Made by a program: the position numbers and the translations under genes. Positions 8,518-45,285 of a stretch of 64,000 bases of DNA are shown here, in pieces. The DNA comes from Butyribacter intestini (GTDB lineage Bacteria; Bacillota; Clostridia; Lachnospirales; Lachnospiraceae), in the NCBI GenBank assembly GCA_001414325.1, contig LLKB01000007.1:62001-126000 (forward strand). Direction: 5' to 3'. Below the pieces are notes generated by a model, which saw only the letters and a program-made list of their open reading frames with translations, had not been told where the DNA came from and did not search any database. Each line of letters starts with the position of its first letter. Positions within the stretch are counted from its first letter, which is position 1.

Positions 8518-11500
8518 ATGAGGTTGAGAAAACAAATAAGCTTATTTTTAAGTTTTGCAATTTCAATAACATCAATGAATGTTACAGCTTTAAGTAACAG
8601 TATATCGGGAATGACAAAGAAAGCAAAGGCTGCTGATATAGTTCTGACAAGCAGTCCGGAGCCGACAAACAATGCATCTGCTGCAGCTATGGATGCGGAT
8701 ATGAGAGTTATATTTACTACAGACATTCATGGTCAGGTGGTCAATTATGATTATCAGTCGGCGAAGGAAGTAAACAGAGGTCTTAATAAGGCATATACGC
8801 TTGTTAAAAAGGCGAGAAATGAGGTTGGAACAGGAAATTATCTTACATTTGACCTCGGTGACAGTGTGTATGATTTTACTACAGATTACATATATAATCA
8901 TGAGCCTGAGGCATTGCAGCCGGTTTATAATGCTATGACAATGATAGGTTATGATGCTATCACACTTGGAAACCATGACTTTGATTATGGATATGATTAT
9001 CTGGTAAATCAGCTTGAAACATCAGGTCTTGAACAATCATGTGTGTTATCAAATGTTTATAGTGCTGCGGATAATAAGAGTATATTTGGTGTTGAGAATA
9101 AGATAATCGAAAAAAACATTACCAATGATGAAGGTCAGGTAATGACTGTAAAAGTTGGTATATTGGGTGAAACGGTACCATCGCTTTCGAGCAAGACAGA
9201 GAAATATAAAGGAAAACTCGTGACTGAAGATATCCTTGAGAATGCCAAGAAGCAGGCGGCTGCACTTAAGAAAAAAGGGGCAGATATAGTAATTGCACTG
9301 GCTCATTCCGGTTTTGGAACAGATAATCCGAAGAAAAAAGCCGGGGATATGGCTTATATGCTCACAACGGTAAGTGATATAGATTTAGTGCTTGCAGGAC
9401 ATGAACATATAGATTTTCCAACCGGATCTTCAAGTGATGCACATTACTCGCTGCCAAATGTTGAACTTAAGACAGGTCTTGTAAATGGAAAAAGACTTAT
9501 CATGGTTCAGGACAGTTGTCGTGGCATCGGAGTTGTTGATTTAAATCTCAAGAGAGATGAGACAGGAAAGATAGTAGTCGGTGACTCTAAGTATGAGATA
9601 AGAAAAACAAAGAAAGACACTTCTTGTGATGAAGCTATTACCGGGACTATGTCAAAATGGGATAGTGTTCTTAAGACATATTGTAATACGGAGATAGGAA
9701 CTATTGCAAACGGAGACAGATGGAATAATTATTCAGCATTGCTTGAGAGTAATGAGATAATCCAGACGGTTCACGAGGCACAGCTTGACTATGCGGCACG
9801 GTTTGTTGAAGCCAATAAATCAAAGTACGGAAACTGGCCAATAGTCTCGTTGGCGAGATACACGAAGTATGGTGGAGAAAGTGGAGGAGATTATGCTGAT
9901 ATTTCAGGCAAACTGATGGAGGGTAATCTTGATACTATTGCGAACTACCACAGGTATGTATATATATATTCAATGACCGGAAAACAGCTTAAAGAATGGC
10001 TGGAGTGGGCAGCATCTATATATCAGACTACGGGAACTTCAAAGGACACTAAGTGGAACAATATCATATTGTCAGATTATATAAATAAAACCGGTGGAAA
10101 TTCGTTGGTACAGGAACCTTATCTTGGCGACTGGAGTGAGTTTTTTCAGTGCAGCGGTATAGAATATACGATTGATCCAAGTGTTGCACCGAGATATGAT
10201 GTGAACGGAAGTTATTTAAATGACACAAACAGGATTACTTCGATGACCTACAATGGCAATCCTATAAGTGATGACCAGAATATCGTGCTTGTGACGGACA
10301 AGATTACACCACATATGCAGTGTGATGCAAATGCAGGCGTAAATGACAATATACTTCAGAGTTCACATGACAATCTTCAGGATGTTATAGAGGAGTACAT
10401 GAAGGAAAAGGCACAGATAAGTGATCTTAAATTAAATATTTCACAGAACTGGCAGCTTAATCTTCCGGACAATTATAAATTCCTTATGGAAAGTGGAAAG
10501 TCAGGTGAGAGTCTGCTGCTTGCAAAGAACTGGTGTAAAGGTGTTTATGATACAATAGGTTATTTCAATTATTATAATTGTAATACAGGTGTACAAAATA
10601 AACAGGATGATATGATACCGTCAGTTGTCGTATCGGAGACAAGCAAGGCAGATACAAAGAGCAGTGTTCCGGTAAGAGTTGTGGCAAATGCAAAATCAGG
10701 AATAACCGTCAAAAAGTATGTTAAAGGGGACTATGATAAGGACTCTGAGGTATGGAATCTGACACCGGCAAGTGGTGGTGCTATAACAATGGATTCAGAT
10801 ACTTTCAGTGTGTCAGAAAACGGTGTCTATTCAGTTTATGTTGAGAGCGGAAACGGAAAATCAGTAATTGAGAAAGTTGCGATTACCAATATTTATCCGA
10901 CTTCGCTTATAGCACCGGTAGTAGGAACAGTTACAAATATTGATGATGAGGTTACAGGTACTGCGTATCCAAACCTTACGGTAAATGTTAAGATTGGTTC
11001 TAAAGTTTATAAGGCATCAGTAAATGTCAAAGGAAAGTTTACTGTTAAGATACCGGTTCAAAATGCAGGGAAAAAGATTACGGTATATGTTTCCGATAAG
11101 AGTGGTGACAAGAGCAAGAGCACGAGTGTTACCGTCAAGAGAAATGGACCAAACAGCCCTAAGATTACATCTGTTAAAAATAACGGTTATGAGATAAAAG
11201 GAAATACAAATGACAGCAATGTCAAGGTTTATGCGGTTATTGGCAAAAATGTGTATGTTTCAAAGGCAATAGGTTCTTCTTATTATAAGAAGTGTAACGG
11301 TTACGATAAGAAACTTAAGATAAAGAAAGTTAATGTTGTCATAAAAAGCAATGGAGACTATACGATAGCTATTCCTAATCAGTATTCAGGAACAAATGTA
11401 TCTGTATATTCGGTTGATAAACTTAGCAGAGTGAGCCATGTCAGAAATAAAAAGGTTTCAAAGAGTGCACCGAATAAACCGACTATCTACACGGTTTCAA

Positions 11501-34375: not shown

Positions 34376-35964
<1,589 letters not shown>

Positions 35965-36013
35965 AGAAAATATAATAGATACATTTTGGGATGAAAAATT
36001 TAGGGGGATGAAA

Positions 36014-38407
36014 ATGAATTTTTACGCTAAATCAAAAAAGCACATATTAAAATATAATGAAAAAGAGAAAGTTGAGAAAGTGTATTCAGATTTAATAGAA
36101 GAAATGGCTGACATACTTTCAAAAGCTGAGATTGCGGCATTGGAAAATGAGAAGAACAATATCATTAACGATGTTTACGAAGAACAAAAAACACTTAGGG
36201 AACACTTAGACGAGACTGTTGAATGTGCGGAAAAATTTTTTGAACAGTATGGAAAATATTTTACTGAAAAGGAAAAAAATCTTATTTATATTGCGTGTAA
36301 ATATCATGATGTTGGAAAGGCAAATCTTGTTTTTCAGGCAAAGCTATCTGATGGGGGAGATGGAAAGTATAAAAATATAACACAGGTTCCGCATGGGTTT
36401 CTTAGTGCTTTGACTTTATCTTTTGAAAAATTGCAAAAAGAATTTGATGACATAACAAAGGAAGATTTTAAATGCCTTGTAACGGCAGTTTATTATCATC
36501 ATACAAGGGATGATGAGTTTGAAGCGTGTGAAATAAGAGAGTTTTCAGAAAAATATTTTAAAGATTGTTTTAATGAATTTTGCAAAGCAAGTGAATGGAA
36601 AACCAGTATGAGAAATCGAGGCAGGGAACTCCTTTTTGTCAACTCAAAAGCATATCCTAATGTTGTGATAAATGAGGATATATGGCAAGAATATATGCTT
36701 ATAAAAGGAATGCTAAATAAATTTGACTGGACAGTAAGCAGTGGAAAAATTGAATCCGAGGAAAAGGTTGATTTTGAAAAGAAGATACTGATAAATAATA
36801 TTGATAAAAGATATGGAAAAAATATGAGAGCGGTTCAGAAGTATATGAGAGAAAAAGCGGACAGCAATGTTGTCATAATCGCACCTACAGGTTCGGGAAA
36901 AACAGAAGCAGCCTTATATTGGCTTAACGGAGAAAAGGGGTTTTATACATTGCCGCTTAAAGTGTCTTCAAATGCAATATATAAAAGAATACGGGAGGAA
37001 TATAATTTTAAAGATGCTGCGTTGCTTCACTCTGAGAGTTTGCAAAAGTATATAGAGGAATCTGCTGATGAACAGGAGAAAGATGCGGAGGAAAAGTCTG
37101 CAAAAGAAAAGTTTGAAAAGACAAAAATGTTTAGTGCACCATTAACAATATCTACTGTAGACCAGTTGTTTTTATTTGTGTATAAAGCATTGGGAACAGA
37201 AATAATGGCAGCAACATTGAAATATTCAAAGGTTATAATAGATGAAATACAGTCATATGAACCAAGAATTGTTGCGGCACTTATATATGGTTTAAAAACG
37301 ATTTCACAGATGGGAGGAAAATTTGCTATTATGACAGCAACACTCCCACCGGTATTGCTTGATTTTATGAACAAATATGGATTGATAAAAAATGAGACAT
37401 ATTGTTTTGAAGATTTTTCGGCAGAAAATGTGATGCAGAGACATATGATAAAGTTATATGAACAGGAATTTAATCTGGAAGAAATCGCAGAGGAATCAAA
37501 AACAAAAAAAGTGCTTGTTATATGCAACACTGTAAAAAAAGCACAAGAAACATATCGTTTGTTGGAAGAATATACGGACAATGTATATTCGTTACATGCA
37601 AGATATATTAAAAAACACAGAAAAATGCTTGAAAAAAATATAATGCAGTTTTCGGAAAACAGAGAAAGCATAGGTATATGGGTGACAACACAGATTGTAG
37701 AGGCGAGTCTGGATATAGACTTTGATATACTTTATACGGAAATGTGTACCGCAGACAGTTTGTTACAGCGTATGGGACGCTGCAATAGAAAAGGTAGATA
37801 TATTCCGTCAAAACCTAATATAAAAATTTATAAAACAGAAAATGCAAAAAGACAAGTAAAAAACAGAATTAACAACACAGGAATATATTATCGGGATTTA
37901 TTTGAGCGTTCTTGGGAATGTATGGGCGATTATGAGAATCAGCTATTTACTGAAGAACAGAAAATAAATTATATCAACGAAGTTTACGATACGGAAAAAA
38001 TAGTAAATACTGAATATTATAAAGAAATAGAAGCATATCTTGAATATTTTCAGAAACTATCTGTGAACGAACTGAGTAAAATGGATGGTAAGAAAAAATT
38101 CAGAATGATAGAGAGTGTGTCTGTGATGCCTGATAAAATTTACAATGAAAATGAGGATTTAATAGAAAAGTATCAGAGTGAAATATACGATAGACATTTA
38201 GGGAGAGAAGCCAAAGAAATATTAAAAACAAAGCTTGATGAATTGACTTTAAGTGTAACTATATATAATAAATATTCAAAGGAAGGTATAGAAGGCGTTA
38301 TCGAAAAAACGGATATACATCGTACAGATTTTGTGTACGATTTTGATGAGGAGACGGGAAAAGGTATCGGGTTATCGAAAACGGAGAGAGAGGGAAACAT
38401 ACTTTAA
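36014..38407 (+). CDS. cas3: CRISPR-associated helicase-nuclease Cas3 (HD-DExH)
   Basis: A 797-aa fused HD nuclease and superfamily-2 helicase that degrades DNA marked by Cascade. HD part: YHDVGK near residue 97, PHGF and YYHHTRDD. Helicase part: APTGSGKTEA near 295 (Walker A), IIDEIQSY near 409 (DEIQ in place of DExH), TATLPP near 443, LVICNTVKKAQ, VTTQIVEASLDIDFD, and QRMGRCNRKG near 586. All motifs for activity are present. The start at 36014 follows AGGGGG by 6-7 nt; a frame extension into cas5 is possible but lacks a site. It is the last standard gene of the effector operon. Confidence 0.93.
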   Translation: MNFYAKSKKHILKYNEKEKVEKVYSDLIEEMADILSKAEIAALENEKNNIINDVYEEQKTLREHLDETVECAEKFFEQYGKYFTEKEKNLIYIACKYHDVGKANLVFQAKLSDGGDGKYKNITQVPHGFLSALTLSFEKLQKEFDDITKEDFKCLVTAVYYHHTRDDEFEACEIREFSEKYFKDCFNEFCKASEWKTSMRNRGRELLFVNSKAYPNVVINEDIWQEYMLIKGMLNKFDWTVSSGKIESEEKVDFEKKILINNIDKRYGKNMRAVQKYMREKADSNVVIIAPTGSGKTEAALYWLNGEKGFYTLPLKVSSNAIYKRIREEYNFKDAALLHSESLQKYIEESADEQEKDAEEKSAKEKFEKTKMFSAPLTISTVDQLFLFVYKALGTEIMAATLKYSKVIIDEIQSYEPRIVAALIYGLKTISQMGGKFAIMTATLPPVLLDFMNKYGLIKNETYCFEDFSAENVMQRHMIKLYEQEFNLEEIAEESKTKKVLVICNTVKKAQETYRLLEEYTDNVYSLHARYIKKHRKMLEKNIMQFSENRESIGIWVTTQIVEASLDIDFDILYTEMCTADSLLQRMGRCNRKGRYIPSKPNIKIYKTENAKRQVKNRINNTGIYYRDLFERSWECMGDYENQLFTEEQKINYINEVYDTEKIVNTEYYKEIEAYLEYFQKLSVNELSKMDGKKKFRMIESVSVMPDKIYNENEDLIEKYQSEIYDRHLGREAKEILKTKLDELTLSVTIYNKYSKEGIEGVIEKTDIHRTDFVYDFDEETGKGIGLSKTEREGNIL

Positions 38408-38451
38408 CACTATCAAGGAAGTAGCAGAGCAGATTGTGAATATCCGATTGA
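38406..38451 (+). repeat. REP-like dispersed element, copy c
   Basis: Starts right at the cas3 stop codon: AACACTATCAAGGAAGTAGC followed by the core AGATTGTGAATATCCGATTGA. Confidence 0.6.
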
Positions 38452-38482: not shown

Positions 38483-38935
38483 ATGATAGATATATATACA
38501 GATAAGAAAAATTGTGAGGACTGGATAATACAAAACGACCTCTACTTTAATTTAAACACCTGTAATGAGGAGATGACAGAAAGAGATATAAATCTTATCA
38601 AGCAGGCGGATGATGCTGTATTAACACCAGACAAGCATATTCAGACAAAGTTCGGTTTGGGAACAATCAGAAATTTATCATCAGGATGCAAAACTTTGTT
38701 AAATATTATAAAACATCCGGATAAAGTTGTATGTGTAGAGGAATGTGGACCTAATGTACTAAAAATAATATTTGAGATGGATAATATTAAGATATATATG
38801 TCAAGACCAAGTTTTGTTTATGTTTCGGATAATACAAAAATCAGGTTTAATGGTGATGAGATTGTGACAGGGAGTGCAGGATATAGTGCATGGTGGAGTA
38901 AGGAATATGAGAGGAGGGAAAAAGATGATTTATAA
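38483..38935 (+). CDS. DUF4869-like small protein, first gene of a three-gene cassette
   Basis: A 150-aa soluble protein of unknown function. From memory of the family, the order 'L-G-TIRNLSSGCKTLLNI' then 'ECGPNVLKIIFEMDNIKIYMS' resembles DUF4869 proteins, which carry LSGGVKTL and CGDNC at equivalent places. It begins with IDIYTDKKNCEDWIIQND. Ribosome site GGAGGG lies 7-8 nt before ATG. The gene end overlaps the next gene by 11 bp, so the two are translationally coupled. It follows cas3 after 75 bp (with a REP-like element between) and has no known CRISPR role. Confidence 0.65.
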   Translation: MIDIYTDKKNCEDWIIQNDLYFNLNTCNEEMTERDINLIKQADDAVLTPDKHIQTKFGLGTIRNLSSGCKTLLNIIKHPDKVVCVEECGPNVLKIIFEMDNIKIYMSRPSFVYVSDNTKIRFNGDEIVTGSAGYSAWWSKEYERREKDDL

Positions 38936-39326
38936 AAATATTTCATTTAAAGCAGCTCCATTTTCGTATGAATTATTTTTTGATGATAGAATAACACTGG
39001 TTGGCGGAGACAGTGGAACAGGGAAAACAGTGTTATATGAAATACTTGAGGATCTTAAGTTGACAGAGGAATATAATGCAATAAAATTGTTTAATTACAA
39101 ATCAGAGAATATGAAAGAAAATCTGAAAAAATGCAGGGATTGTTTTATTGTTATTGATAATGCAGACATTCTGATTGACGATGATATAAGAAGATTTATT
39201 AATTTTGAGTTTTCTAATCAGTATATGCTTTTTTCAAGAAATTGTGATGGCTTGAATGTATCAGATAAAAGTTTTAAAATATTGCAGCTTGATGACAATA
39301 AAATAACACTTCAAGATGAGTTATAG
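38925..39326 (+). CDS. Miniature P-loop ATPase, second gene of the cassette
   Basis: A 133-aa protein with a clear Walker A (LVGGDSGTGKTVLYE, about residues 26-40) and a Walker B-like strand (CFIVIDNADIL, about 65-75). The N terminus reads ISFKAAPFSYELFFDDRITL, like the start of ABC/SMC-type ATPases, but there is no room for a signature helix or dimerisation arms. The C terminus repeats short beta strands (FKILQLDDNKITL). The start at 38925 has GAGGAGGG 6 nt upstream and lies inside the end of the previous gene. Only a small core of an OLD/AAA-type ATPase is preserved; a partner may be required. Confidence 0.7.
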   Translation: MIYKNISFKAAPFSYELFFDDRITLVGGDSGTGKTVLYEILEDLKLTEEYNAIKLFNYKSENMKENLKKCRDCFIVIDNADILIDDDIRRFINFEFSNQYMLFSRNCDGLNVSDKSFKILQLDDNKITLQDEL

Positions 39327-39349
39327 TGTGTGTAGAAATGGGGAATAAA

Positions 39350-39778
39350 ATGAAATATTTATGGACAGAGGATACAGGTGCAGGATTATATTTTTGGCAG
39401 TTGGCAAATGAGCTTTTCTTTGGTGGCGAATTAGAGGTAGAAAGCAAAGGGAGCAATCAGGGGATATTAGATGCAGTATCACATATAGATGCTAATGATA
39501 ATAATATATATTATATTGCATTTGACTATGTGGTTGATAATCAGGATATTCGGAATAAATACAGATTACTCAGAACATATGCTGCCAAATCGGATAGCCA
39601 CATTGTAATACTTGATATGATTTGCTTTGAATATTTGATTTTAACTTTTGATAAACTTGTGGAATGGACAGGGACTGGTAAAAAGGATAAGGTAAAGATG
39701 CGTATGGAAATACTGAAAACAATAGAAAATCACCATATTAATTTATCGAAAATACAAGACGAGAAAACTTTAAAATAA
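39350..39778 (+). CDS. TOPRIM-like small protein, third gene of the cassette
   Basis: A 142-aa protein beginning KYLWTEDTGAGLYFWQLANE, followed by ESKGSNQGILDAV and YYIAFDYVVDNQDI. This order, acidic residue after a strand, glycine-serine-asparagine turn, then a D...D strand, resembles a bare TOPRIM fold as in OLD nucleases and DUF4435-type proteins. The match is by eye only. The start at 39350 has GGGG 6 nt before it. It lies 23 bp after the ATPase, so all three cassette genes form one operon. ATPase plus TOPRIM suggests a split OLD-like or Gabija-like pair. Confidence 0.6.
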   Translation: MKYLWTEDTGAGLYFWQLANELFFGGELEVESKGSNQGILDAVSHIDANDNNIYYIAFDYVVDNQDIRNKYRLLRTYAAKSDSHIVILDMICFEYLILTFDKLVEWTGTGKKDKVKMRMEILKTIENHHINLSKIQDEKTLK

Positions 39779-39814
39779 TTAGCAGGATTTAAGAGGTTTT
39801 CTACGGAAAGAGTA

Positions 39815-40027
39815 ATGAAATCATTGGCAGGGGAATTAACAGAAAATGAAAGATGGTCGATAAAAGGAAAAGAAATGGGGGGATGTTGGCATAAGGATTG
39901 TTGCATTTCAGAACATAAAGACAGTATCAGATGCGGACAACCAAATGTCAAATCAGGAATTATGAAAATGCGTATGTTAATACAATCTGTTGAAGTGCAA
40001 AAGGTACTAAGAGATATAGTAGTTTAG
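39815..40027 (+). CDS. Short Cys/His-rich ORF of uncertain coding status
   Basis: A 70-codon frame after the cassette with the stretch GGCWHKDCCISEHKDSIRCGQ, which has four cysteines and two histidines. The ribosome site is weak (GGAAAGAG two nt from ATG). It could be a small metal-binding protein, a degraded gene end or chance. The rest of the 39779-40224 gap contains a REP-like copy and the CRISPR leader. Confidence 0.3.
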   Translation: MKSLAGELTENERWSIKGKEMGGCWHKDCCISEHKDSIRCGQPNVKSGIMKMRMLIQSVEVQKVLRDIVV

Positions 40028-40224
40028 AAATGATTGCTGTGCTATTGTCGACCTAAGAAAGTGCATTTTTGTGGGGGAGTTGACAATCCATTGATTCGTG
40101 TGGTATGAGAAGCGTTGTGAGCAAGTAATTGAGCAGATTGCGAACATCTACTTGACTTGTTTTTTCGGGGGTAGACAAAAAGGGGGTTGAAAATCGTAGA
40201 AAATAGAGTATTATATAGGTATGG
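40028..40224 (+). promoter_or_regulatory. CRISPR leader and array promoter
   Basis: The region between the last ORF and the first repeat contains a TTGAAA (40187-40192), 16-bp spacer, TATTAT (40209-40214) promoter, which would start transcription about 5 nt before repeat 1. Upstream lie GTCGACC and G-rich tracts. The most conserved repeats are on this side and the decayed ones at the far end, which fixes the orientation. Confidence 0.7.
40114..40155 (+). repeat. REP-like dispersed element, copy d, inside the CRISPR leader
   Basis: Runs from GTTGTGAGCAAGTAATTGAG through CAGATTGCGAACATCTA to CTTGA. It matches the family core with several changes and splits the sequence upstream of the array. 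Confidence 0.5.
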
Positions 40225-43200
40225 GATTTAATAGGAACATAATGGGATGTAAATAATTCTATAACGGGGTTGCAAAAAGCGGCAGACAAATGATTTAATA
40301 GGAACATAATGGGATGTAAATTTGAGTAGGTATTTTATCATATAGCATACACTCATGATTTAATAGGAACATAATGGGATGTAAATAAAAGAATATCTTT
40401 ATAAAGTTCTTCACTGATATTCGATTTAATAGGAACATAATGGGATGTAAATTTCTATACTCGTAATATAGCAATAAATGTACTGAGATTTAATAGGAAC
40501 ATAATGGGATGTAAATTCTTATGTTGCTGTCACCTTGCGACCATGGTACATGATTTAATAGGAACATAATGGGATGTAAATGTCGAAAAACTCTTTGTAA
40601 ATGAAAATGAAGTGTTGATTTAATAGGAACATAATGGGATGTAAATATCATTGTGTTAGCGGCTAAGCAAAAATAAACGAGGATTTAATAGGAACATAAT
40701 GGGATGTAAATATCAATAGAACCGATAAAATCAGCAATAGCCTGCCCGATTTAATAGGAACATAATGGGATGTAAATTCAAAGCCTAAGAGAATATTTTT
40801 GTAAAGCTCGTCGATTTAATAGGAACATAATGGGATGTAAATATGTGTTTATTTACTTTCCGTATGTTGTATATATGGATTTAATAGGAACATAATGGGA
40901 TGTAAATTCGTTTGTAAGACCGAAGTTATTTTGCATTTTTAGATTTAATAGGAACATAATGGGATGTAAATAAATGTGGCTATTAAATACAATTACTAAA
41001 TATAAGATTTAATAGGAACATAATGGGATGTAAATTATTCCCACCGGTCAAATTGCGACCGATGAAAGTTGGATTTAATAGGAACATAATGGGATGTAAA
41101 TACAGCTGAATTGTGTGAAGCTGAATTACTCGCACAGCGATTTAATAGGAACATAATGGGATGTAAATCACTTATTCCGTTTGACCTTACAAAATTATAA
41201 TCAGATTTAATAGGAACATAATGGGATGTAAATGCGGATATTGCTATCGCCTTGCGACCACGGCACATTGATTTAATAGGAACATAATGGGATGTAAATC
41301 CGCATAAAAGAGGTGAAAAAAGATGTGGTATTCTGATTTAATAGGAACATAATGGGATGTAAATACTCAGCAAGGTTTTGTATATATGACAGGTATTACG
41401 ATTTAATAGGAACATAATGGGATGTAAATCAAGATGTAGCGGTTATTGAGAATAAAAACCACTAGGATTTAATAGGAACATAATGGGATGTAAATTGGTT
41501 TACTGTAATGTCAGCAAAAGTTATTTTTTCGATTTAATAGGAACATAATGGGATGTAAATTTTAACAAGGAGGTCTATAACTTTATAGACCTCTCGGATT
41601 TAATAGGAACATAATGGGATGTAAATACACAACTTTATAAATTACAAGATAGTGGGTTAGATTTGATTTAATAGGAACATAATGGGATGTAAATATCACA
41701 TACGAAAACTTTTTGTCAGAAACTGAAATAGATTTAATAGGAACATAATGGGATGTAAATAACAGTTATATAACATAGCAACAAATCTATTTTCAGATTT
41801 AATAGGAACATAATGGGATGTAAATCTCAACTTTATAAATTACAAAATAGCGGCTTAGATGATTTAATAGGAACATAATGGGATGTAAATTTTTCAAGAA
41901 TTGATAAACACTCGTAACTTATGTAGAGATTTAATAGGAACATAATGGGATGTAAATTTTGAGCGTGAACGGTTAGCGTTATATCTGTTGCACGATTTAA
42001 TAGGAACATAATGGGATGTAAATATGTTTAAGTTTGTTGTGACGGTTATTGAAAAATGGATTTAATAGGAACATAATGGGATGTAAATAGAGTAACTGTA
42101 CAAGAATATTGTAATTGACATGCCGATTTAATAGGAACATAATGGGATGTAAATTTTGCCCTTACTCGCTAACTTAGAGTAGTGATTTAGATTTAATAGG
42201 AACATAATGGGATGTAAATAGATAGTCTAACATCTTTACTTTTCCCGTCAAAAACGATTTAATAGGAACATAATGGGATGTAAATTTCAAGGTGATTATA
42301 CTTCTGTTTGGGGAGTTGGGTCGATTTAATAGGAACATAATGGGATGTAAATTTACTTTATCTAATGATATGTGTAAAAATTTGGAATTGATTTAATAGG
42401 AACATAATGGGATGTAAATCATTACCATCTATCATTGTGTTGGCGGCTAAACAAGATTTAATAGGAACATAATGGGATGTAAATTTGTCACTGAAAAAAT
42501 CGGTGCTTAAATTAAATTTGATTTAATAGGAACATAATGGGATGTAAATGTGAAGAATATAGACAGATGAGTAAATATGATAGAGGGGATTTAATAGGAA
42601 CATAATGGGATGTAAATATGATATAAATGATTTATCTGATAAACTCAATGCTGATTTAATAGGAACATAATGGGATGTAAATCAGTACTATCAGATGTTT
42701 TTACATAAACAAAAACACGATTTAATAGGAACATAATGGGATGTAAATCTCACTACATCCATTTGAGCGTGTACCTCTATCGGATTTAATAGGAACATAA
42801 TGGGATGTAAATAGATAATCTCATATCATGTTCATATCGACTGACGAGATTTAATAGGAACATAATGGGATGTAAATTCTTTTTTGAAGAATTTGTGCTT
42901 ATGGAAGATGATGATTTAATAGGAACATAATGGGATGTAAATTAATTGTCTGGCAAAAGTAATTTTGCATAATTTAAGATTTAATAGGAACATAATGGGA
43001 TGTAAATCGAAATAAATCAGCAATAGCATCACTAAGATTAAAGATTTAATAGAAACATAATGGGATGTAAAGTAGCAACTTTATTTGAAAGTGCTTCACC
43101 AGTCCAGATTTAATAGGAACATAATGGGATGTAAAGAGTGACTATGGCGTAAAATTTGAAAAAGATACAAATGGATTTAATAGGAACATAATGGGATGTA

Positions 43201-43469
43201 AAGGTCATCATGTTTGTGACGGCATACGGAAGAAAAAAACGATTTAATAGGAACATAATGGGATGTAAAGTTGAGTCACGAAAGATATTCGGATAATTTT
43301 ACTTTTGGATTAATAGATACATATTGTAATGTAAAGAACTCAACAAAAAGGATTTCTTCACACTCAACAAAGATTTAATAGAAACATAATGGAATGTAAA
43401 GCCTATGGCTTCTGCAACTGAATTTTTTGCACCATTACCAATTTAATAGAAACATAGTGGAATATCAAC
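40225..43469 (+). CRISPR. CRISPR array, type I-B: 50 repeats of 30 bp, 49 spacers
   Basis: The consensus repeat begins GATTTAATAGGAACATAA and ends GGGATGTAAAT; its last eight bases give the expected 5' handle. Counting repeat starts gives 50 units with a 64-68 bp period, so spacers are mostly 34-38 bp. Repeats 1-43 are essentially identical. From 43043 the last base is G instead of T (TAAAG). Repeat 44 (43043), repeat 48 (43307) and repeat 49 (43372) carry internal changes, and the terminal unit (43440-43469) is strongly decayed. Transcription is in the plus direction from the leader at 40028-40224. Spacers have no detectable common strand or frame bias by eye. Confidence 0.98.
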
Positions 43470-43502
43470 TGCCAAATATTAAGCATGGAAGGAGAAAAAT
43501 GT

Positions 43503-43997
43503 ATGGAAGAAAGAATAACAGGAGTAATGATTTATTATTATTTTGTGTGTAAGCGTAAATTGTGGTATTTTTGTCATGAAATTAATATGGAATCAGGTAA
43601 TGAGGATGTGCAGCTTGGAAAGATTTTGGATGAGACAAGTTATGGAAGAAGTGAGAAACACATTCAGATTAATGGAGAGATTAATATAGATTTTATAAAA
43701 GAACATCGTGAGTTACATGAGATTAAAAAAAGTAAGTCAATAGAGCAGGCAGGAATATGGCAAGTTAAATATTATCTGTATTATTTAAAAAAGCGTGGAG
43801 TAGATGGATTAAAGGCAAAAATTGATTATCCATTATTAAAAGAAAATGTTATGGTTGAATTATCAAAAGATGACGAAAATCAGCTACAATTTGTAATTGG
43901 AGATATTGTTAAAATTAAAAAGGAAAAAAGACCGCCAATTATGAAGAAAACAAAGTTGTGTTCAAAATGTGCATATCGTGATTTGTGTTTAATTTGA
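43503..43997 (+). CDS. cas4: CRISPR-associated exonuclease Cas4
   Basis: A 164-aa RecB-family nuclease used during spacer acquisition to trim prespacers and choose PAM-proximal ends. It shows GVMIYYYFVCKRKLWYF with the first Cys, HEIKKSKSIEQAGIWQVKYYLYYL (core E-x-K and helix) and the C-terminal cluster CSKCAYRDLC for an iron-sulfur cluster. The start at 43503 has AAGGAG 8 nt before; a frame from 43485 adds six residues that are in fact the ribosome site. First of three adaptation genes, placed behind the array, 33 bp after the last repeat. Confidence 0.93.
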   Translation: MEERITGVMIYYYFVCKRKLWYFCHEINMESGNEDVQLGKILDETSYGRSEKHIQINGEINIDFIKEHRELHEIKKSKSIEQAGIWQVKYYLYYLKKRGVDGLKAKIDYPLLKENVMVELSKDDENQLQFVIGDIVKIKKEKRPPIMKKTKLCSKCAYRDLCLI

Positions 43998-44010
43998 GGG
44001 GAGTGTGTCT

Positions 44011-45003
44011 ATGAAGCAAAGTTTTTATGTTTACAATGATGGTGAAATTAAAAGAAAAGATAATACATTGCAATTTCGCACATATGAGGGAGAAAAAAGG
44101 GATATTCCGATAGAGCGGATTTCAGATATTTATGTTATGTCAGAAATGTCATTTAATACAGCATTTTTAAATTATATTTCTCAATATGGTATTCCTATTC
44201 ACTTTTTTAATTATTATAATTTTTATACGGGAAGTTATTATCCGAGAGAATCATTGCTTGCCGGACAGTTATTGGTTAATCAGGTGGAATACTATCAGGA
44301 TAGTGTGAAAAGACTGAAAATTGCTCAAAAAATCATAGATGCGGCAACTTTCAATATATATAGAAATTTAAGATATTATAATGGCAGAGGTAAAGATGTT
44401 TCAAAATGGATGAATGAAATAGATGGACTGCGGAAACAGATTGAAAAGACAAATACGATAAATGAACTTATGGGTATTGAGGGAAATATAAGACAACAAT
44501 ATTATGCGGCATGGAATGTTATAGTGAATCAGGAAATAAAGTTTGAAAAAAGAGTAATGCACCCACCTGATAATATGATAAATTCGTTGATATCATATGT
44601 AAATTCATTGATTTATTCAAAAACATTGAGCGAGGTTTATCATACACAGTTAAATCCGACAATCAGTTATCTGCATGAGCCTGGTGTAAGACGTTATTCG
44701 TTGTGTCTAGATATATCTGAAGTTTTTAAACCTTTAATAGGTGACAGATTGATTTTTTCATTGTTAAATAGACAACAGATTACAGAAGAAAGTTTTACGC
44801 AGGAGTTAAATTTTTTACATTTGAAAAAAGAAGCATCAAAGCTGATTGTTAGGGAACTTGAAAATTCATTAAAAAAGACAATTAAACATAAGGAATTAGG
44901 ACGACAGGTTTCTTATCAATATTTAATTCGTCTAGAATTATATAAATTGATAAAGCACATAATTGGAGAAAAAGAATATGAAGGGTTTAAAATATGGTGG
45001 TAA
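44011..45003 (+). CDS. cas1: CRISPR-associated integrase Cas1
   Basis: A 330-aa Cas1 of type I-B. The N-terminal beta domain contains FYVYNDGEIKRKDNTL and IPIERISDIYVM. The helical domain carries the metal ligands: Glu in MGIEGN near residue 156, His in YLHEPG near 221, and acidic residues in LDISEVFKP near 235. Cas1 with Cas2 inserts new spacers at the leader end. Start chosen at ATG 44011, 8-9 nt after GAGGGG; GTG at 44005 is too close. It follows cas4 after 13 bp and precedes cas2 by 3 bp. Confidence 0.96.
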   Translation: MKQSFYVYNDGEIKRKDNTLQFRTYEGEKRDIPIERISDIYVMSEMSFNTAFLNYISQYGIPIHFFNYYNFYTGSYYPRESLLAGQLLVNQVEYYQDSVKRLKIAQKIIDAATFNIYRNLRYYNGRGKDVSKWMNEIDGLRKQIEKTNTINELMGIEGNIRQQYYAAWNVIVNQEIKFEKRVMHPPDNMINSLISYVNSLIYSKTLSEVYHTQLNPTISYLHEPGVRRYSLCLDISEVFKPLIGDRLIFSLLNRQQITEESFTQELNFLHLKKEASKLIVRELENSLKKTIKHKELGRQVSYQYLIRLELYKLIKHIIGEKEYEGFKIWW

Positions 45004-45006
45004 AAA

Positions 45007-45285
45007 ATGTATGTAGTTTTGGTATATGATATAAGTCTAGAAGATAAAGGGGCAAAAAGATGGAGGTCTGTTTTTAAGATATGTAAAAAATATCTGTCAC
45101 ATATACAAAATTCGGTATTTGAAGGTGAGATTTCAAAAGTTCAATTAACGAAAATGCAAAATGAATTAAAACCTCATATAGATAAAAATCTTGACTCGGT
45201 TATTGTCTTTAAAAGCAGACAGGAAAAATGGCTTGAAAAAGATTTTTGGGGTAAAGATAACGACATGACAGACTTTATGCTTTAA
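45007..45285 (+). CDS. cas2: CRISPR-associated protein Cas2
   Basis: A 92-aa Cas2 that dimerises and bridges two Cas1 dimers in the adaptation complex. It starts MYVVLVYDISLEDKGAKRWRSVFKICKKYLSHIQNSVFEG, the typical first strand with a conserved Asp, RR-like basic helix, and HIQNSVFEGE. Normal size. It is the last gene of the CRISPR locus. Confidence 0.95.
   Translation: MYVVLVYDISLEDKGAKRWRSVFKICKKYLSHIQNSVFEGEISKVQLTKMQNELKPHIDKNLDSVIVFKSRQEKWLEKDFWGKDNDMTDFML

Follow-up and report, generated by a model that had tools for sequence, protein, structure and literature searches.

Three small genes lie within a type I-B clustered regularly interspaced short palindromic repeats (CRISPR) locus of Butyribacter intestini, with cas3 on one side and the CRISPR array on the other. 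This raises the question whether they serve the CRISPR system or form a unit of their own, and what such a unit could do. The window referred to below is the whole stretch that was analysed, 64,000 nucleotides (nt) of contig LLKB01000007.1 (positions 62,001 to 126,000 of the forward strand). The trio encodes a DUF4869 protein (gene 1), a short P-loop ATPase (gene 2) and a protein with a predicted TOPRIM-like domain (gene 3), and its distribution has the pattern of a laterally spread cassette. In the reading that we prefer, and to which we give an even chance, it would be a mobile, split OLD/PARIS-like module in which a two-protein ATP-binding cassette (ABC)-type ATPase controls a TOPRIM nuclease effector in anti-phage or abortive defence. 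The module in the window consists of the following parts:

38483..38935, + strand: gene 1, DUF4869 protein, 150 amino acids (aa), from its open reading frame (ORF) and a PF16163 match; proposed detached signature half of an ABC-type ATPase, with NLSSGCKT at residues 64-71, then VVCVEECG at 82-89
38925..39326, + strand: gene 2, P-loop ATPase core, 133 aa counted from the ATG, with Walker A GGDSGTGKT and Walker-B-like FIVIDNAD, lacking an ABC signature
39350..39778, + strand: gene 3, N-terminal 142 aa, TOPRIM-like domain (E7, D59/D63, E94); the in-frame TAA at 39776-39778 ends the ORF
39779..40027, + strand: remainder of gene 3 past the premature stop, same frame, C-terminal part with the conserved Cys cluster GxCWxxDCC...C

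All three genes are located on the + strand; genes 1 and 2 overlap by 11 nt, and a gap of 23 nt separates genes 2 and 3. These coordinates agree with an initial annotation, made from the sequence alone, of three small ORFs in the same direction. The motifs it had named, GGDSGTGKT and the FIVIDNAD strand in the second protein and the order TED, KGSNQG, FDYVVDN in the third, are also present. A promoter and terminator scan scored at the level of the shuffle mean.

Distribution of the module and fusion of genes 2 and 3

Gene 3 was found in 23 of 299 genomes of the same family, and homologues occurred in 42 loci of a second genome collection. Within the genus 7 of 28 genomes carry gene 3, some as fragments or with a stop. 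The few hits in wider samples (2 of 391 class-wide, 1 of 299 phylum-wide) were all in the host or in other members of its family. A search of the 299 same-family genomes with gene 2 yielded 41 places in 34 genomes. Three of these (G140, G212, G272) were dropped as long ORFs of unrelated P-loop proteins, with neither gene 1 nor gene 3 present, which leaves 38 genuine places. At 34 of the 37 places that could be scored gene 1 is next to gene 2, which confirms that the trio is one unit whose homologues occur together, as had been suspected. Two groups differ in gene order, with P1-P2-P3 in one and P3-P1-P2 in the other. Outside the trio pairwise identity is soon lost: it reaches background level some 20 nt before gene 1 and immediately beyond the gene 3 stop. 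No family of neighbouring genes is shared by most of the loci, the commonest cluster comprising 11 genes over all loci. Compared with the nearest relative, locus L025 of Eubacterium sp. MSJ-13 (93% identical), the ratio of nonsynonymous to synonymous substitution rates (dN/dS) is 0.08-0.14 across all three genes. Such low values, together with the many homologues, argue that the trio is not a chance arrangement.

A single genome of 4.9 Mb (G111) contains seven divergent copies of the module (L072, L085, L223-L227). At least two of them have intact separate TOPRIM-like genes and one is of the fused type described below, truncated after its ATPase part. A transposon-like unit was considered and rejected, since identity comparison revealed no conserved ends at the module borders. 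A phage-borne module was likewise rejected, as no relative was confirmed in two scans of viral contigs by pattern. Among unannotated “Bacteriophage sp.” faecal scaffolds, which are possibly bacterial DNA, one matches gene 3 and five match the fused form. A search of plasmids did not find genes 1 and 3 and located the fused form on three replicons.

In a sister group the DUF4869 gene is followed by a gene for one protein of about 330 aa that joins the ATPase and the TOPRIM-like domain (L094); the DUF4869 protein of this locus is a typical family member (137 bits). The same pair is present on replicons of Ruminococcus albus, Agathobacter rectalis and Collinsella aerofaciens, annotated there as “DUF4869” and “hypothetical protein”. 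In some copies the fusion is broken or missing (L095, L096, L227, L233). The natural fusion of genes 2 and 3 is strong evidence that both act together, and it bears out the earlier view that the ATPase and the TOPRIM-like domain belong together. One lone gene 2 homologue, without genes 1 and 3, lies beside a TOTE-type primase-helicase gene (PF22548) at L229:528-3560 (-).

DUF4869 and its P-loop partner

The initial annotation had recognised the second protein as a P-loop ATPase, and the Walker A motif and Walker-B-like strand support this. It had also noted a resemblance of the first protein to DUF4869; the match to PF16163 has an E-value of 3.1e-6, while its 27.5 bits stay below the cut-off of 28.9. 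What had been overlooked is that DUF4869 may be part of the ATPase and not an independent component of unknown function. We counted motifs in 49 sequences per protein, comprising the aligned sets and divergent copies; as these are related, the counts are not independent tests. The signature [LIM]SxGx[KQ]T occurs in 48 of 49 DUF4869 proteins versus 1 of 2260 unrelated non-P-loop ORFs, and the exact LSGG in 12 of 49, mostly from the typical DUF4869 group. A strict Walker A (GxxxxGK[ST]) is found in none of the 49 DUF4869 proteins. Protein 2 has the complementary set: Walker A in all 49 sequences (pattern Gxxxx[GE]K[ST], in which [GE] admits one G-to-E variant) and the Walker-B-like strand in 48, followed by another conserved strand (NQYMLF..RN). 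The ABC signature is present in none of the 49, including the ATPase parts of the fusions.

In the AlphaFold2 model of DUF4869 (predicted local distance difference test score, pLDDT, 93.5) the signature occupies residues 65-71, with a helix at 67-77 and a strand at 82-84. The order of elements is signature helix, strand, helix, strand, hairpin, helix, which we take to be that of the C-terminal half of an ABC domain. Searching the PDB with Foldseek, we found that ABC-type ATPases, classed by title, account for 44 of the best 50 of 92 matches; by E-value none of the 50 is significant. Sixteen of these 44 are chains of retron complexes, identified by entry title only and presumably PtuA. In HHalign comparisons DUF4869 scored 18.2, 21.3 and 21.8 against OLD-like, AAA_21 and ABC-transporter profiles (11, 12 and 8 sequences), with maxima of 16.3, 17.3 and 15.7 in 15 column shuffles each, and the alignments fall at the signature of these profiles. 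Protein 2 matches the same three profiles with 90–94% probability in the Walker A region. Sequence searches of the PDB gave generic P-loops for gene 2 and a best E-value of 0.67 for gene 1.

In known ATPases the ABC signature works in trans (PMC7049728), and therefore a single ATP site could be formed jointly by two proteins whose motifs complement each other. From the motifs and the predicted structures we infer that genes 1 and 2 probably encode an ABC-type ATPase split in two. This inference is the main new point of the analysis.

The TOPRIM-like protein and its loss

For the third protein the AlphaFold2 model of an intact relative (pLDDT 91.6) gives a confidently predicted TOPRIM-like topology, with strands at residues 2-6, 28-32, 53-57 and 85-88 alternating with helices along the chain. 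The C-termini of OLD proteins occupy ranks 1-3, 6 and 13 of the Foldseek search of the PDB; they are the best matches, yet not significant, and the likeness to OLD is suggestive. The TOPRIM-like fold put forward in the initial annotation was thus not refuted by structure prediction, the model speaking for it and the non-significant matches limiting it. The Glu expected after strand 1 of a TOPRIM domain (E7) is invariant in 25 of 25 aligned rows, as are D59 and E94 among the aligned rows, and [TIVC]ED is found at any position in all 35 gene 3 sequences. The order Glu, Asp, Glu, the last in the helix after strand 4, parallels the acidic residues E400, D455 and E508 of Bp OLD (PMC6755086). The fused form reads ADGAAFG at the place of the TOPRIM DxD. 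Protein 3 also gave weak profile matches (E 0.27-3.1) to OLD-like and RloB-like proteins at a conserved FE motif (...CFEFWLLLH), in a searched set that was enriched in such proteins by prior selection. The sequence search of the PDB with gene 3 returned a best E-value of 0.38.

The third protein had been taken for a minimal one of 142 aa, which did not hold. The frame of gene 3 runs on beyond the TAA to position 40027 as a conserved C-terminal part, and the gene 3 profile match in the window spans this single stop. The length count covered 39 relatives, with a chosen minimum of 215 aa; 38 of them have 222-246 aa and one has 340 aa. The window gene 3 is a truncated copy of a protein of about 225 aa that relatives keep intact. 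The lost part includes the cysteines C179, C184 and C185, invariant in the 25 aligned rows. The dN/dS ratio against L025 is 0.137 before and 0.141 after the stop; since both values are alike, the stop is recent or the silencing of gene 3 incomplete. The window copy, whose effector lacks its C-terminal part, is probably inactive or recently disarmed.

In-frame stops were also seen elsewhere. A gene 3 copy of the other subgroup has a single one at L080:2710-2712, with an otherwise open frame downstream; its relative position of 0.61-0.62 nearly matches that in the window. Another copy, near position 8480 of L031, likewise contains one stop and an otherwise open downstream frame. A distant homologue of 340 aa (L023/L084) has a long C-terminal extension.

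We scored the state of gene 3 at the 38 gene 2 places: 19 are intact, 9 broken, 6 absent, 1 ambiguous and 3, at contig ends (G171, G131, G182), not scorable. The ambiguous case, G068, is a fusion whose ATPase part contains a stop, and was kept within the 35 scorable places as not lost. The fusions G088 and G083 and the copy G111:C16 were counted as intact despite 81-94% profile coverage, while G002 and G213, whose starts are cut, were counted as broken. Gene 1 is broken at 2 (G131, G171) and absent at 3 (G213, G008, G291) of its 37 scorable places; G182 was not scorable (1 of 38) and G112 was counted as intact at 78% coverage. Overall, gene 3 is broken or absent at 15 of 35 places versus 5 of 37 for gene 1 (Fisher p 0.008). 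The more frequent loss of gene 3 is suggestive, the loci being related, some assemblies drafts and gene 3 the longer gene.

Three DUF4869-ATPase pairs without a TOPRIM gene have other neighbours, each type seen once. At L230:773-3241 (-) the ATPase gene overlaps an FRG-domain gene (PF08867, E 4e-15), followed by a GmrSD_N gene; here gene 1 is interrupted by an in-frame stop, and as the contig does not extend to where gene 3 normally lies, a TOPRIM gene is possible beyond it. At L237:2-7001 (-) a pair and a second, partial DUF4869 lie beside a DUF4238 gene inside an apparent type I restriction locus, its flanks being hsdS- and hsdR-like genes named from a look at the sequence only. A 211-aa gene without Pfam match (L228:2229-2861, +) lies upstream of the third pair at the expected place of the TOPRIM gene; its ADP-ribosyltransferase-type look is an impression only.

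Possible mechanism, alternatives and related systems

In the mechanism that we propose, protein 2 would be the ATP-binding half with Walker A and B, and DUF4869 the half with the signature motif; a composite ATP site would arise from the two in trans. The ATPase pair would hold or trigger protein 3, a TOPRIM nuclease effector in this scheme. Upon a signal from an invader the effector would be released or activated and cut nucleic acid, with anti-phage or abortive defence as the outcome. Candidate targets are DNA, which OLD and GajA cut (PMC10568477), or tRNA as for AriB. In PARIS an ABC ATPase holds a TOPRIM nuclease, which infection releases to cut tRNA-Lys (PMC11455837, PMC12409363). The proposed defence role derives, by analogy, from the ATPase-TOPRIM logic, the lateral spread and the loss of the effector, and not from neighbouring genes. 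As a broader and more tentative idea, possible but held with less confidence, DUF4869 and a short P-loop partner could be obligate complementary halves with a single asymmetric ATP site. They would then act as a general trigger for varied effectors, mostly a TOPRIM nuclease and perhaps FRG/GmrSD-type or DUF4238 proteins.

Several results weigh against the proposed split module. The best Foldseek E-value of protein 3 is 0.017 (ranks 1-3, 0.017-0.099), with TM-scores to OLD of 0.29-0.35. Its HHalign score against the OLD-like profile (15.5) does not beat the shuffle maximum of 20.5, and the intact protein has no match to any Pfam model, TOPRIM models included. The TOPRIM Gly after strand 2 is not invariant, the rows reading SKxSN or SKxNN there with G, E, L, F, K or T as x. 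After strand 3 there is a DxxxD instead of a DxD; D59 is invariant and the second acid, D63, at least 90% conserved. For DUF4869 the best Foldseek E-value is 0.11, TM-scores stay below 0.4 (best 50 of 92 matches), and the HHalign probabilities to the ABC-type profiles amount to 0.5-3%, though the scores beat the shuffles. Since protein 2 by itself already represents a largely complete P-loop core, the role of DUF4869 could be that of an adaptor and not of half an ATPase.

The surroundings of the trio add to these points. We compared PADLOC family tallies, a crude measure, between genes near to and far from the trio and genes at contig starts (148 of 187, 148 of 174 and 146 of 149 genes), all from trio-bearing genomes, with the window and L025 excluded from the near and far sets. 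They amounted to 107 families in the 148 near genes, 50 in the 148 far and 161 in the 146 contig-start genes, which is no enrichment; the enrichment of defence neighbours that the initial annotation had proposed as a check was not seen. The near set includes single matches to Csm6, AbiEi, Drt2 and TOTE-primase models, among others, and the contig-start set single matches to Wadjet, type IIG and GajB models, among others. Moreover not all OLD-type ATPases are defensive, as the archaeal Cran1 reportedly has a function in the cell cycle (PMC12796447).

The position of the trio suggests a different role, that of an accessory of the surrounding type I-B locus, which the initial annotation had also raised. 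The features that make up this context are:

35924..38407, + strand: cas3, upstream of the trio
38416..38451, + strand: leader-like segment upstream of gene 1, an imperfect direct repeat of 40120-40155 (repeat family D11, 75%)
40028..40224, + strand: CRISPR leader region from trio to array, outside the module
40225..43260 (end approximate), + strand: CRISPR array with the 30-nt repeat GATTTAATAGGAACATAATGGGATGTAAAT

Upstream, the cas set is of type I-B by profile matches to cas8b, cas7, cas5 and cas3, and the three ORFs after the array (43485-45285) are presumably cas4, cas1 and cas2. Both in the window and in L025 the trio lies between cas3 and the array on the same strand, and at another locus one near-neighbour protein matches Csm6/CARF-HEPN models. 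Against this, only the window and L025 have cas clusters of the window type at a distance of up to 7 genes from the trio. A simple repeat scan detected arrays at 3 of 62 loci (the window, L025 and, at a distance of about 6 kb, L045), a set that includes some duplicates of one genome and two loci without the trio. The conserved unit reaches from some 20 nt upstream of gene 1 to the stop of gene 3 and behaves as an insert. The score of the leader-like segment was reached by 2 of 500 shuffles in the window and by 0 of 500 in L025, and such an upstream remnant fits an insertion at the leader end. Directly after the gene 3 stop of L025 an apparent partial CRISPR repeat was noticed by eye (8629-8700); the array repeats differ slightly between L025, GAAACATAGTGGGATGTAAAG, and the window, GGAACATAATGGGATGTAAAT. 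Cas3 was matched in 11 of the 28 genus members. Apart from the host only G974 is close (87%), with the trio at the same place, and an empty CRISPR site without the trio was not found among the 28. It seems that this lineage acquired the cassette in a single event, by insertion at the leader end of its array. We therefore rejected the accessory role on the basis of the distribution and the leader-like remnant; the spread of the trio has already largely refuted it, and we consider it very improbable.

Two other explanations deserve more weight, though we regard each as unlikely. The trio could be a toxin-antitoxin-like module without anti-phage role, with protein 3 as toxin and DUF4869 and the P-loop protein as antitoxin or chaperone, kept by addiction and horizontal transfer. 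Patchy spread, unrelated flanks and the missing defence enrichment around the module would fit this, as would the higher loss of gene 3, expected of a costly effector; the non-defence role of Cran1 (PMC12796447) offers a precedent among OLD-type ATPases. On the other hand OLD, Gabija and PARIS, bacterial systems that combine ABC ATPase and TOPRIM, are anti-phage (PMC10568477, PMC11455837). PARIS itself is described as a toxin-antitoxin-like pair, so this explanation overlaps with the split defence module. Equally doubtful is an arrangement in which DUF4869 would be a separate sensor or adaptor outside the ATPase fold, and proteins 2 and 3 a complete miniature OLD. Proteins 2 and 3 do fuse without DUF4869, and protein 2 owns its Walker-B-like strand and a further conserved one. 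Yet DUF4869 bears the very motif that protein 2 lacks, most of its best 50 PDB matches are ABC-type ATPases, and its order of elements follows that of an ABC domain in its C-terminal half.

Among known systems, OLD and GajA (Gabija) have the ATPase-TOPRIM logic in common with the module, and the sister-group fusion has their single-polypeptide layout; the OLD C-terminus is also the top, if non-significant, structural match of protein 3. The module differs from OLD in several respects. OLD carries ABC ATPase and TOPRIM on one polypeptide, whereas the window has three separate genes. Walker A and signature share one ATPase domain in OLD and are distributed here over two proteins (49 of 49 and 48 of 49 sequences). 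The ATPase is small and seemingly split, DxxxD replaces DxD, and the split group has the extra Cys cluster. PARIS, with AriA as ABC ATPase and AriB as TOPRIM tRNase, has separate ATPase and TOPRIM genes as in the window and is the closest working model, namely for sequestering and releasing a free TOPRIM protein (PMC11455837); it has one ABC ATPase protein, where two short proteins would share the role here. PADLOC matched protein 2 to LmuB (E 1.8e-5), GajA (0.0046), AriA (0.0073) and PtuA (0.045), and proteins 1 and 3 remained without any match at E ≤1; profile homology to PARIS was thus limited to the weak AriA match of protein 2. The TOPRIM proteins beside AAA_21 ATPases, which we take to be of RloB type, were matched by protein 3 weakly and non-significantly at ...CFEFWLLLH, and their partner is a full-length AAA_21 protein. 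We conclude that the module is a variant of the ATPase-TOPRIM kind, probably with a split ATPase and, in this genome, with an interrupted third gene.

Within Pfam DUF4869 (PF16163), a family with no function on record, gene 1 is a divergent member, while the typical member of L094 precedes a fused ATPase-TOPRIM protein; the group of the window keeps the ATPase and the TOPRIM-like domain as two genes. In the open-access literature searched we found no paper naming DUF4869 or PF16163, and in the titles and opening abstract lines of the OLD/TOPRIM defence literature no split signature subunit. If our reading is true, it would provide a testable function for this Pfam family and would show to what extent the ATPase-TOPRIM architecture known from OLD, Gabija and PARIS can be reduced and divided. 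With the signature motif on a protein of its own, its role in trans would then be directly testable with two purified proteins.

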